Shown here one piece after another: positions 35,588 to 39,879 of a stretch of 64,000 bases of DNA. Under the pieces are notes generated by a model. It worked only from the letters and a program-made list of their open reading frames with translations, made no database searches and was not told where the DNA came from. The stretch is taken from assembly GCF_005796205.1 (NCBI RefSeq), contig NZ_VAHN01000001.1, positions 186,001 through 250,000 on the forward strand, in the 5' to 3' direction. The position numbers and the translations under genes are program-made. The DNA comes from Pseudarthrobacter sp. NamE2. Lineage in GTDB: Bacteria; Actinomycetota; Actinomycetes; Actinomycetales; Micrococcaceae. How positions within the stretch are numbered: position 1 is the first letter of the stretch; every line of letters starts with the position of its first letter.

Positions 35588-37102
35588 ATGAACCAGTACG
35601 TAATCGCCATCGACCAGGGAACCACCAGCACCCGCGCCATCATCTTTGACCACACCGGAAGCATCGTCTCGTCGGGGCAGATGGAACACGAGCAGATCTT
35701 CCCGAAGGCCGGCTGGGTGGAACATGACGCTACGGAGATCTGGGACAACACCCGCGAGGTCATCGCCTCCGCCCTCTCCAAGGCGAACCTGACCCGGCAC
35801 GATATCGCCGCCGTCGGCATCACCAACCAGCGCGAAACCGCCGTGGTCTGGGACCGGACCACGGGCAAGCCTGTGTACAACGCCATCGTGTGGCAGGACA
35901 CGCGAACCCAGGACATCGTGGACGCGCTGTCGAAAGACGGCGGGGCGGACCGCTTCAAGCAGAAGGTGGGCCTGCCCCTGGCCACATACTTTTCCGGCAC
36001 CAAGATCAAATGGATTCTGGACAACGTCGAGGGCGCCCGGGCAAAAGCCGAAGCGGGGGACCTCCTCTTCGGGAACACCGACGCGTGGGTGCTGTGGAAC
36101 CTGACTGGCGGCGTGGACGGCGGCGTCCACGTCACGGACGTCACCAACGCGTCCCGCACGCTTTTCATGGACCTGGAGAGCCTGCAGTGGGATGACGAAA
36201 TCCTGGGCATCTTCGGCGTGCCGCGCAGCATGATGCCGGAGATCAGGTCCTCCTCGGAGGTGTACGGCCAGGTCCACGGCTCGCAGCTGCTCCGCGAAAC
36301 GCCCGTCGCCGGCATCTTGGGCGACCAGCAGGCAGCCACCTTCGGCCAGGCCGCTTTCGAGACCGGCGAGGCCAAAAACACCTACGGCACCGGCTGCTTC
36401 CTGATCTTCAACACCGGCGAGGAGATCGTCCACTCCAAGAACGGGCTGCTGACCACCGTCGGCTACAAGCTCGGCGACGCCAAGCCGCACTACGCCCTGG
36501 AAGGGTCCATCGCCGTCACCGGCTCGCTCATCCAGTGGCTGCGGGACAACCTGGGCATGATCAGCAGCGCCCCGGAGGTGGAAACACTGGCCGCGTCCGT
36601 GAAGGACAATGGCGGGGTGTACATTGTCCCGGCGTTCTCCGGCCTGTTCGCCCCGTACTGGCGCTCGGACGCACGCGGGGCGATCGTGGGCTTGACCCGG
36701 TTCGTCAACAGGAGCCACATTGCCCGCGCCGCGCTCGAAGCCACAGCCTTCCAGACCCGCGAGGTCCTCGATGCCGTCAACGCCGACTCGGGTGTTCCGC
36801 TCAGCGAGTTGAAGGTCGACGGCGGCATGGTGGCCAATGATGCGCTGATGCAGTTCCAGGCGGACATCCTGGGTGTCCCCGTCATCCGCCCCAAGGTCAT
36901 CGAGACCACGGCGCTGGGAGCGGCCTACGCGGCCGGCCTGGCTGTTGGGTTCTGGAAGGACCTCGGTGAACTGTCCGCCAACTGGTCGGAGGACAAGCGC
37001 TGGGAGCCCCAGCTCGACCAGGCCGAACAGGACCGCCAGCTGCGGCTCTGGCGGAAGGCCGTCACCAAATCCATGGACTGGGTGGACGAGGACGTCCGGT
37101 AA
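35588..37102 (+). CDS. glpK: Glycerol kinase
   Basis: A 504-residue FGGY-family kinase that traps glycerol as glycerol 3-phosphate. The N-terminal phosphate-binding loop is [16 protein letters not shown], and the later ITNQRET and WQDTRT blocks contact glycerol. [16 protein letters not shown] and [20 protein letters not shown] are the FGGY signatures of the second half. The length is as expected. It is the last gene of the glp run, followed by a GC-rich terminator. Confidence 0.96.
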
Positions 37103-37113
37103 GCGTTACCACG

Positions 37114-37155
37114 CTGGCCGGGCCGGGGAGGTAATCCCTGGCCCGGCCAGGCCTT
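37114..37155 (+). terminator. Terminator after glpK
   Basis: An 11-base-pair stem (CTGGCCGGGCC at 37114-37124, GGCCCGGCCAG at 37140-37150) with a 15-base loop, followed by GCCTTTCC. It closes the glp transcript just before the leuS leader. Confidence 0.65.
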
Positions 37156-37167
37156 TCCAGGGTGCGC

Positions 37168-37173
37168 TAAAGT
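37168..37173 (+). promoter_or_regulatory. Candidate -10 box of the leuS leader transcript
   Basis: TAAAGT ends 6 bases before the ATG of the leader peptide, so the transcript would begin at or next to that ATG (leaderless). No good -35 box is visible; the expected position is inside the glpK terminator. Confidence 0.4.
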
Positions 37174-37179
37174 AGTTTC

Positions 37180-37206
37180 ATGCGTGCGATCCTTCTGCTT
37201 AGCTAG
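37180..37206 (+). CDS. Leucine leader peptide upstream of leuS
   Basis: An 8-codon ORF encoding MRAILLLS, with three consecutive Leu codons (CTT CTG CTT) and then AGC TAG. It lies directly in front of an intrinsic terminator and the leuS gene. That is the classic layout of ribosome-mediated attenuation: a ribosome stalled at the Leu codons when charged tRNA-Leu is scarce would change leader folding and let transcription into leuS. The leader upstream of leuA in this window has the same M-R-A start and the same CTTAGCT sequence at the end of the Leu block. Confidence 0.75.
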   Translation: MRAILLLS

Positions 37207-37242
37207 CCGCCGGATATCCGAAACAACGGGTAACCGCGCGGC

Positions 37243-37267
37243 AGCCCCTCCATGGTGAGGGGCTTTT
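37243..37267 (+). terminator. Attenuator terminator in the leuS leader
   Basis: AGCCCCTC, loop CATGGT, GAGGGGCT and then TTT gives an 8-base-pair stem with a U tract. It starts 36 bases after the leader-peptide stop and 90 bases before the leuS start. With no gene between, its position makes sense only as a conditional terminator. A 5-base pairing of GCCGC (37206-37210) with GCGGC (37238-37242) and the palindrome CGGATATCCG (37211-37220) lie between the peptide and the terminator. Confidence 0.75.
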
Positions 37268-37356
37268 GTGTGTCCGGGCGGATTTCCGGGCGGGCAGCAG
37301 GAGGATCAGGCCGTTATGGCAGCACAAGTGCCGTAACAGAACAGAAGAGGGCAGCA

Positions 37357-39879
37357 GTGGGCGTTCAGCCGGAGACAGAAACCGGAGCAGCAGTGGCAGC
37401 GGAAGCACCCGGGGAGGGTACGTACAGCTTCACGGCGATGGAGGCCAAGTGGCCGCAGGTGTGGGAAGACCTCAAGGTCTTCACGCCTGTCGACGACGGA
37501 TCACGGGAACGCCGGTACGTGCTGGACATGTTCCCCTACCCGTCCGGCGACCTGCACATGGGCCACGCTGAGGCCTTTGCCATGGGCGATGTGGTGGCCC
37601 GCTACCTGCGCCAGCAGGGCTACGACGTGCTGCACCCGATCGGCTGGGATTCGTTCGGCCTGCCGGCCGAAAACGCCGCCATCAAGCGCAACGCCCATCC
37701 CAGCGAGTGGACCTACGCAAACATCGACACCCAGGCTGCGTCCTTCAAGCGCTACGCCATTTCGGCCGACTGGTCGCGCCGGTTGCACACCTCGGATCCC
37801 GAGTACTACCGCTGGACCCAGTGGCTCTTCAAGCGGTTCTACGAACGCGGGCTGGCTTACCGCAAGGACTCCCCGGTCAACTGGTGCCCGAAGGACCAGA
37901 CAGTCCTGGCCAATGAGCAGGTTGTCAACGGCGCCTGCGAGCGCTGCGGCACCACTGTCACCAAGAAGTCGCTGAACCAGTGGTACTTCAAGATCACGGA
38001 CTACGCGGACCGGCTGCTCGACGACATGGAGCAGCTGCGCGGCCACTGGCCGGAGCGCGTCCTGGCCATGCAGAAGAACTGGATCGGCCGTTCCGAGGGT
38101 GCGCACGTCAACTTCGTGATCGAAGCCGATGCCGGCAAGCCCGCCAAGGAAGTCACGGTGTTCACCACCCGGCCGGACACCCTGTACGGCGCCACCTTCT
38201 TCGTTGTGGCGGCGGATGCACCACTGGCCGCGGAACTCGTTACCGACGAACACGCTGCTGCCCTGGACGAGTACCGCGAACGGGTCAAGGCGCTGTCCGA
38301 TATCGAACGGCAGTCCACCGAGCGGGAAAAGACCGGCGTGTTCACCGGGCGCTACGCCATCAACCCGCTGAACGGTGAAAAGCTGCCCGTCTGGGCCGCC
38401 GACTACGTCCTGGCCGACTACGGCACCGGGGCCATCATGGCTGTGCCCGCGCACGACCAGCGCGACCTGGACTTCGCCCGCACCTTCGGCCTGCCTGTCC
38501 GGGCCGTACTGGACACCGGCGAGGACGATCCCGCGGTGTCCGGTATTGCCACCGCCGGTGAAGGCACCCTGATCAACTCCGGCGAGCTGGACGGCCTGCC
38601 AAAGGCTGAAGCCATTCCGGCCGCCATAGCCATCCTGGAACGCCAGGGCACAGGGGAGAAGTTCGTCAACTTCCGGCTCCGCGACTGGCTGCTCAGCCGC
38701 CAGCGCTTCTGGGGCACCCCCATCCCCATCATCCACTGCCCGTCCTGCGGCGAGGTGCCGGTGCCCGACGAGCAGCTGCCCGTCACCCTGCCCTCGGACC
38801 TGCGCGGCGAGGACCTCGCGCCCAAGGGCACCTCGCCCCTGGCTGCTGCCGAGTCCTGGGTCAACGTGGAGTGCCCGTCCTGCCACGGTCCGGCCAAACG
38901 TGATACGGACACCATGGACACCTTCGTCGACTCGTCCTGGTACTTCCTGCGCTTCGTCTCGCCCCAGTACACCGAAGGTCCGTTCGACCCGCAGAAGATC
39001 AACGACTGGATGCCGGTGGGCCAGTACGTGGGCGGCGTGGAGCACGCCATCCTGCACCTGCTGTACGCCCGTTTCTTCACCAAGGTCATTAACGACCTCG
39101 GCATGATCGAGGCCAATGAGCCCTTCAGCGCGCTGCTGAACCAGGGCCAGGTGCTCAACGGCGGCAAAGCCATGAGCAAGTCCCTGGGCAACGGCGTGGA
39201 CCTGGGGGAGCAGCTGGACAAGTACGGTGTCGACGCCGTCCGCCTCACCATGGTCTTCGCCTCCCCGCCCGAGGACGATGTGGACTGGGCAGACGTGTCG
39301 CCGTCCGGGTCGGCCAAGTTCCTGGCCCGCGCCTGGCGCCTGGCGCAGGACGTGGCCAGTGCACCGGGTACCGATTTCACCGGCGGCGACCGCGCCCTGC
39401 GTTCCGTGACGCACCGCACCATCGCCGACTCCGCGGAACTGCTGGACGCGAACAAGTTCAACGTTGTGGTGGCCAAGCTCATGGAACTGGTCAACGCTAC
39501 CCGCAAGGCAATTGACTCCGGCGCAGGCGGCGCTGATCCCGCCGTGCGCGAAGCAGCCGAAGCCGTGGCCATCATCCTCAGCCTTTTCGCCCCCTACACC
39601 GCCGAGGACATGTGGAACGTCCTGGGCCACCCGGCGTCGGTGGCGAATGCCGGCTGGCCTGCCCACGACCCTTCACTGCTGGTCCAGGCCACGGTCACCG
39701 CGGTTGTGCAGGTCCAGGGCAAGGTCCGGGACAGGCTCGAGGTGTCGCCTGGCGTTTCGGAAGACGAGCTGCGGGAACTGGCGCTGGCCTCGGAGAACGT
39801 CCAGCGCGCCATGGACGGCCGCGGCATCCGCACGGTTATTGTCCGGGCACCTAAACTGGTCAACATCGTCCCGGCCTAG
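37357..39879 (+). CDS. leuS: Leucine--tRNA ligase
   Basis: An 840-residue class I synthetase that charges tRNA-Leu. I chose GTG 37357, with AAGAGGG 6 bases upstream; the frame is open further upstream, but that part lies inside the attenuator terminator. The first ~20 residues are Glu/Ala-rich. Blocks seen: [12 protein letters not shown] (HIGH motif), [12 protein letters not shown], the CP1 editing domain with [14 protein letters not shown], the zinc-type cysteines in HCPSCGEVP and VECPSCHG, and [10 protein letters not shown] (KMSKS). The C-terminal domain ends [13 protein letters not shown]. The gene is preceded by a leucine attenuator. Confidence 0.96.

Follow-up and report, generated by a model that had tools for sequence, protein, structure and literature searches.

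In attenuators of the E. coli trp, leu and pheST type, a leader carries control codons and overlapping regions 1-2-3-4, and the position of the ribosome is read out by termination. For leuS, the leucyl-tRNA synthetase gene considered here, attenuators were predicted in 2005 in Streptomyces avermitilis and S. coelicolor (PMC1262725), and for the S. lividans leader LeuL2 (MRAVRLLLSEPR*) a leaderless start, a hairpin and a U run are reported (PMC8079986). The Corynebacterium glutamicum ilvBNC leader has antiterminator and terminator hairpins side by side with three nucleotides in common, and a third hairpin has been proposed (PMC11857589); the Corynebacterium ilvB-II motif is an element with a leader open reading frame (ORF) (PMC10272879). 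Changing the LVVI codons of the Mycobacterium tuberculosis ilvB1 leader to AAAA abolishes induction (PMC13236596). A 50-genome RNA survey lists the ilvB motif, and the words leucyl, leader peptide and tRNA synthetase have no occurrence in its main text (PMC11109978). Here we analyzed 64,000 nucleotides (nt) of Pseudarthrobacter sp. NamE2 (contig NZ_VAHN01000001.1, positions 186,001 to 250,000; hereafter the window), where the element in front of leuS is, judging from sequence comparison, probably a leucine-responsive, ribosome-mediated transcription attenuator.

The element consists of a short ORF with a run of Leu codons, a hairpin that we call P1, and an intrinsic terminator. It shares with the Streptomyces leuS attenuators the gene, the LLL-S motif, a leaderless-looking start and the hairpin with a U run. 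It also has two features of the LeuL2 type: just before leuS stands a short ORF carrying a run of Leu codons, and between this ORF and leuS lies an RNA of hairpin and terminator recognisable as the same. A model, R1, trained on leuS leaders of Micrococcaceae and a few Propionibacteriaceae and on no Streptomyces locus, matched 11 genomes of a genus labelled g8 at E-values of 1.1e-9 to 4.9e-8. Among the eight g8 matches listed, the peptide before leuS is MRAVRLLLSEPR* in six, MRAVRLLLTEPR* in one and MRAVRLLLSGPR* in one; from the identical peptide we infer that g8 is Streptomyces. The stop codon stands at the base of P1 in the window and three codons later, inside P1, in the g8 genomes. The leader occurs with two types of LeuS protein, which differ between the window and the g8-type loci (39.5% identity over 491 amino acids between the window and locus L090). 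An earlier note on this DNA had suggested that such an element may be undescribed; as a kind it is not, since the Streptomyces predictions date from 2005 (PMC1262725). For an Arthrobacter leuS leader, we found no paper in a search limited to open-licence literature.

No counterpart of the overlapping regions of the E. coli trp/leu/pheST type was found in the leuS leaders. The C. glutamicum ilvBNC leader and the Corynebacterium ilvB-II motif resemble the window in their branched-chain control codons (CUU, GUA) and in an ORF next to the transcription start, which is predicted in the window; the ilvBNC hairpins overlap by three nucleotides, whereas P1 and the terminator have no common nucleotide in 74 of 75 leuS leaders. 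The M. tuberculosis ilvB1 leader, compared here by its published description, also has branched-chain control codons in a leader ORF and a terminator before the gene, but it serves another gene and is described with mutually exclusive hairpins (PMC13236596). The lack of a shared nucleotide is new, as are the onset of P1 5 nt past the last Leu codon wherever the stop lies and the closely similar geometry that leuS, leuA and ilvB leaders show throughout the phylum.

The strongest evidence for the element is comparative. We fetched a named set of 80 leuS loci by protein similarity and searched them with an ORF scan followed by a peptide list, in which the −10 box was part of the selection and the spacing is thus partly built in, and with a second model, R2. 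One method or the other placed the leader at 57 loci. The ORF scan found it in 53, plus the window, and R2 in 51, some of which belong to the R2 training set; R2 recovered four leaders missed by the ORF filter (L068, L075, L076, L080) and missed six Glutamicibacter-type leaders (L030, L031, L037, L039, L040, L044; three labelled Arthrobacter sp.). Two of the 80 loci have less than 85 nt upstream and are uninformative (L051, L081). Carriers are labelled Arthrobacter, Pseudarthrobacter, Paenarthrobacter, Specibacter, Paeniglutamicibacter, Zafaria, Sinomonas and Glutamicibacter, and several Propionibacteriaceae, Planobispora and Actinomadura loci carry the leader as well. Neither the ORF scan nor R2 found it in the examined loci of Kocuria, Rothia, Micrococcus, Nesterenkonia, Yaniella, Auritidibacter, Acaricomes, Tessaracoccus, Thermobifida and Nocardiopsis. 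Leucine control of leuS would thereby reach beyond Streptomyces, into Micrococcaceae and a number of deeper lineages of actinobacteria.

LeuS was present in all 148 genomes of a class-wide search. Our class sample held 75 leuS upstream regions from 74 of 81 genera on a hand-drawn list, three of them clipped by contig ends. A scan that used no model found a Leu-Leu-Leu mini-ORF with a terminator in 21 of the 75 regions; the same scan with other residues gave three hits for Arg, one each for Val, Ala and Gly, and none for Ile, Ser, Thr, Pro, Asp, Glu or Lys. R1 matched 33 of these regions (E ≤0.01), including two with MRAVRLLLSEPR* (L194, L209). The 22 class leaders used for spacing were not selected by the box: any in-frame start before the Leu run was accepted, with gaps of 4–9 nt allowed. 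The distance from a TANNNT box to the in-frame start was 6 nt in 17 of them, 7 nt in 4 and 8 nt in 1, which fits a leaderless start.

The control codons point in the same direction. Conservation of the Leu codons across relatives, which the earlier note had named as a test of its reading, is present, and the reading stands in this respect. Among the 53 named leaders, the last Leu slot holds CTT in 44, CTA in 7, CTG in 1 and CTC in 1; the leuS genes of the same loci use CTT for 3.7% and CTA for 0.6% (together 4.3%) of their 3518 Leu codons. Rarely used codons are, in theory, the best sensors of tRNA charging. Slots 1 and 2 of these leaders show a synonymous mix of CTT, CTC, CTG and TTG, with a non-Leu codon in a minority. 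The control codons are kept as codons and biased to rare ones, as expected of a translation-based leucine sensor; the counts come from related loci, and no probability is attached to them. Of 76 leaders, 26 have AGC directly behind the last Leu codon and 16 have ACC.

Both hairpins appear to covary. The leader of the window folds with z = −2.28, and 6 of 200 shuffles were equally good. RNAalifold predicted both hairpins unprompted from 37 relatives; its covariation term was 0.01, because these pairs are nearly invariant among the 37. When the two-hairpin structure was imposed on the 37 leaders, the upper stem of P1 covaried, with 30 two-sided cells in all versus 8.0 in shuffles. Among 53 diverse members, two-sided changes occurred in 14 of 17 pairs (121 cells versus 28.9, sd 6.0, in shuffles); this alignment, in which 96.5% of cells pair, was fitted to the structure and hence leans toward covariation. 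The terminator covariation that the earlier note had suggested looking for was seen in this fitted alignment too, with pairs changed on both sides. Its attenuator reading holds for the leader ORF, the start adjacent to the −10 box and the terminator, all conserved in Micrococcaceae and beyond, but P1 had been overlooked.

We measured the geometry by folding in 76 leaders, of which the named set and the window together supplied 54 and the class sample 22; 75 of the 76 have P1. In 60 leaders, P1 sets in 5 nt beyond the last Leu codon; the distance is 4 nt in 6, 2–3 nt in 4 and 8 nt in 5 (Glutamicibacter-type), and one leader lacks P1. Between P1 and the terminator, the gap is 0 nt in 35, 1 nt in 33, 2 nt in 5 and 3 nt in 2 of the 75 leaders. 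P1 itself measures 15–62 nt. In 50 leaders, the second codon past the last Leu is the stop; in 25, the stop is the 4th to 11th. Since the stop position varies, it is the distance from control codon to hairpin, not the stop, that is near-constant. Both spacing windows were satisfied in 64 of 76 leaders versus 252 of 3750 controls, which were single-base shuffles of the P1 region. A ribosome unwinds RNA to about +11. When numbered from the first P-site base of a ribosome that has CUU in its A site, the onset of P1 is at +12, directly past this point, and the near-constant spacing amounts to a direct prediction about ribosome geometry. A contiguous overlap of P1 into the terminator measured 0 nt in 74 leaders and 1 nt in one, and of the terminator into P1 0 nt in all 75.

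The features of the locus are collected in Table 1. The TAAAGT box, the MRAILLLS ORF with its three Leu codons, leuS downstream, and the terminator with an 8-bp stem, CATGGT loop and U tract 36 nt past the leader stop all lie exactly where the earlier note had placed them. The box is separated from the leader ATG (37180) by 6 nt, and this spacing suggests that transcription starts at the ATG and yields a leaderless transcript; the window scan gave no hexamer pair of the sigma-70 type. The 5' edge of P1 is the G of the TAG stop, 5 nt past the last Leu codon, and its 3' edge adjoins the terminator. LeuS scored 970.8 bits against NCBIfam TIGR00396 (leuS_bact; cut-off 548.4). Its most likely start is the GTG at 37357, behind AGAGGG, and the GTG region is also found in close relatives. 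The ATG at 37252, the start of a listed ORF, lies inside the terminator loop and was rejected as the leuS start. No TANNNT box was found between the terminator and leuS in the window. That interval contains a six-codon ORF, MAAQVP* (37316-37336), behind an AGGAGG (37299), which is missing in some close relatives. Upstream of the leader, glpK occupies 35588-37102 on the same strand; a strong inverted repeat at 37114-37150, after glpK and upstream of the leader promoter, is probably the glpK terminator.

Table 1 Features of the leuS leader region, in positions of the window.
Feature	Position	Strand	Evidence
TAAAGT, putative promoter −10 box	37168..37173	+	sequence
Leader ORF MRAILLLS*, ATG CGT GCG ATC CTT CTG CTT AGC TAG	37180..37206	+	sequence; 37 leaders aligned
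Three Leu codons CTT CTG CTT; the last (37198-37200) is the conserved control codon	37192..37200	+	codon counts
Hairpin P1, basal stem GCCGC 37206-37210 / GCGGC 37238-37242	37206..37242	+	folding, alignment
Intrinsic terminator T, AGCCCCTC-CATGGT-GAGGGGCT, 8-bp stem, abuts P1	37243..37264	+	sequence, alignment
T/GT-rich termination tail TTTGTGTGT	37265..37273	+	sequence
AGAGGG, probable leuS ribosome-binding site	37346..37351	+	sequence
leuS, leucine--tRNA ligase, 840 amino acids, GTG start	37357..39879	+	NCBIfam TIGR00396

We then folded 54 leaders with masks for four ribosome states, using a measure that counts P1 or substitute hairpins. Pairing above one half just upstream of the terminator was present in 54 of 54 leaders without a ribosome. 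A ribosome halted two codons ahead of the last Leu left such pairing in 53, one halted on the last Leu in 34, and one placed two codons past it, at the usual stop, in 15. This loss of upstream pairing follows the order that the model described below needs, and it counts for that model. In the window, P1 pairing over the four states was 0.99, 1.0, 0.03 and 0.01. The terminator reached at least 0.8 in all table cells but two: L026 without a ribosome, and L037 at the stop, a state in which the mask lies over the terminator. Neither the folding of the 54 leaders nor the overlap count of 75 revealed an overlapping antiterminator.

Under the proposed mechanism, transcription would begin at or next to the leader ATG and a ribosome would load directly at the 5' end. 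When Leu-tRNA is scarce, the ribosome would stall on the Leu codons, above all on the rare CUU at codon 7, and P1, 5 nt beyond this CUU, would be able to fold while the ribosome waits. When Leu-tRNA is ample, the ribosome would reach the stop and cover the 5' arm of P1; with the base of P1 open, the terminator would complete and transcription would end before leuS. An intact P1 may hinder the last base pairs of the terminator from closing in the RNA polymerase exit channel, and an open P1 may supply the slack for closure. We propose P1 as a ribosome-gated antitermination hairpin because it is best preserved on starvation, when expression of synthetase and biosynthesis genes should increase, and we propose a contact mechanism because P1 and the terminator touch and share no nucleotides. 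The contact step by itself we offer tentatively, with more doubt than confidence. The data show the anatomy, its conservation, the codon bias, the covariation, the near-constant spacings and the lack of overlap; the start site, the translation of the leader, the direction of the response and the contact mechanism are what we infer from these patterns. The coupling of hairpin and terminator is possibly of a novel mode. If the flush, non-overlapping layout is functional, attenuation would be possible without mutually exclusive base pairing, and such elements would easily be overlooked when only competing hairpins are sought.

Related leaders stand before ilvB and leuA. The same genome carries an ilvB leader, VGTVVVLTKRVAY*, at G000 C2:89950-90062 on the plus strand (L083, 1501-1613), with the same layout of P1 and terminator. 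R1 matched it at E 0.0067 before the gene for the acetolactate synthase large subunit, and it matched leuA, leuA and ilvB leaders in three other genomes at E 9.0e-6, 2.6e-4 and 0.0021; a search of 396 genomes at E 0.01 should give about four matches by chance. These R1 matches are the non-circular support for the kinship, because R1 was built on leuS leaders only. The R2 training set includes two members from ilvB and two from leuA, which makes the R2 matches before these genes partly circular. Against the 396 phylum genomes, R2 gave 55 matches in 50 genomes, and by similarity or place 24 lie before leuS, 18 before ilvB and 6 before leuA. The downstream genes were confirmed by NCBIfam for L083, L106, L107, L109, L222 and L244. 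The leuA leaders are L106, L107, L218, L222, L234, L244 and L246, and the ilvB leaders include L220, L233, L236 and others; in other actinobacterial lineages, leuA and ilvB leaders have their control codons exchanged (LLL or V-L-I).

The 14 ilvB leaders examined mostly read CTC GTA CTT ATT ACC and then stop, and their P1 begins 1–2 nt into the stop codon. The terminator routine scored five of six leuA leaders, with the P1 onset at 2 or 4. Much the same frame thus carries Leu codons before leuS and leuA and Val-Leu-Ile before ilvB, with flushness less strict for leuA and ilvB. Among LeuA proteins, too, the leader accompanies two families, TIGR00970 and TIGR00973 (L106 versus L222); together with the two LeuS types, this means that leader and enzyme type were not always exchanged together. 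A wider claim, possible but somewhat unlikely, is that leuS, leuA and ilvB of Actinomycetota have a common non-overlapping attenuator, in which P1 blocks the terminator by contact within RNA polymerase and specificity lies in the rare codons CUU, GUA and AUU in fixed slots. In such an architecture, P1 would start where the cover of a ribosome halted at the last control codon ends, and would extend to the terminator or close to it. The likeness suggests that the three genes share one exchangeable RNA device across synthetase and biosynthesis genes.

Several observations weigh against leucine-responsive attenuation through P1 as proposed here. Under the coarse mask, a ribosome on the last Leu is enough to remove P1 in the window (0.03) and upstream pairing in 20 of 54 leaders, and the pairing persists in 15 of the 54 even at the stop position, so that the fit hinges on the point at which a ribosome actually ceases to unwind the RNA. 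The terminator of the window stays at 1.0 in all four states and is never lost in folding; since there is no terminator-free folding state, the switch rests on a steric argument. P1 folds without a ribosome, which under the model means readthrough, unlike in classical attenuators. A stable hairpin sits flush with 41 of 48 leader terminators versus 12 of 28 other terminator-like sites, and flush adjacency, which often arises by chance in this GC-rich DNA, is weakened as a distinguishing feature when taken alone. The layout is also less flush elsewhere: the gap is 0–1 nt in 9 and 2–4 nt in 5 of 14 ilvB leaders, and 0 in three and 3–4 in two of five leuA leaders. The five Glutamicibacter-type leaders with an 8-nt offset have one Leu codon. 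L052 (Glutamicibacter sp. PS, 1359-1430) keeps both hairpins with a leader, MKPQ*, that has no Leu, and L037 (1362-1422) has Leu codons and the terminator without P1; both are possibly decaying copies. In S. coelicolor, changes of the candidate control codons in the ilvB leader were reportedly without effect on regulation, and leuA leader mutations had effects inconsistent with classical attenuation (PMC1262725).

A classical attenuator would need a weak or transient antiterminator that overlaps the terminator and wins when the ribosome stalls. The C. glutamicum ilvBNC model lends it a precedent, with adjacent antiterminator and terminator bases and a GCC common to both (PMC11857589), and with a register shift of at most 1 nt, 9 of 75 leaders could pair at least 3 nt upstream of P1 with the terminator arm. 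The overlap counts given above argue the other way, and pairing of the terminator 5' arm with upstream RNA was at most 0.03 in every state in 53 of 54 leaders, the sole exception being L026 (0.43 without a ribosome). We consider this explanation unlikely. No overlapping antiterminator having been found by folding or overlap counts, the leuS element is therefore not classed as trp-type; a fast attenuator of the C. glutamicum ilvBNC type was likewise rejected, its three shared boundary nucleotides being absent, with 74 of 75 leaders sharing none. It is more improbable that the leader acts independently of the terminator, with a stalled ribosome, Rho or RNA decay setting leuS output and the hairpins as a mere boundary. 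Actinobacterial leader peptides without obvious terminators are described for the Mycobacterium cys operons and leuA (PMC1262725), but here the terminator and its tail are conserved, with covariation, and keep a near-constant place relative to P1.

The conserved CTT and its surroundings could instead serve RNA pairing rather than leucine decoding, and CTTA[GC]C is indeed conserved beyond what Leu alone needs. This is very improbable, as Leu slots 1 and 2 vary synonymously, and 12 of 14 ilvB leaders of similar geometry carry ATT or ATC in the last slot, in most cases preceded by GTA and CTT. The differing ilvB slots also ruled out an anti-Shine-Dalgarno-like pairing of CUCCUU. That a chance Leu-rich mini-ORF precedes a terminator merely separating glpK from leuS has hardly any probability left: glpK does lie upstream on the same strand, but the inverted repeat that probably ends it is already upstream of the leader promoter, and conservation across many genera refutes chance. 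A T-box or other Rfam RNA was rejected, with no match at gathering score in the window. Among 20 related loci searched at E up to 1, Rfam gave two weak matches only, both below gathering: sR44 away from the element (L083), and Phe_leader, which fell on the L236 ilvB element with 27.6 bits (E 0.78; cut-off 55).

Two loci deserve mention apart from the attenuator itself. L058, labelled Sporosarcina beigongshangi, has an Arthrobacter-like leuS (86% identity) with the leader, and this assembly is probably mislabelled or contaminated. The remaining seven R2 matches are unclassified or chance-like (L108, L224, L232, L235, L239, L243, L248); one of them, L232, holds an element-like stretch at 57-146 (oriented) with the codons V-L-L-I-T-stop, whose downstream ORF resembles prephenate dehydratase, not a branched-chain gene, its best NCBIfam matches lying below their cut-offs.

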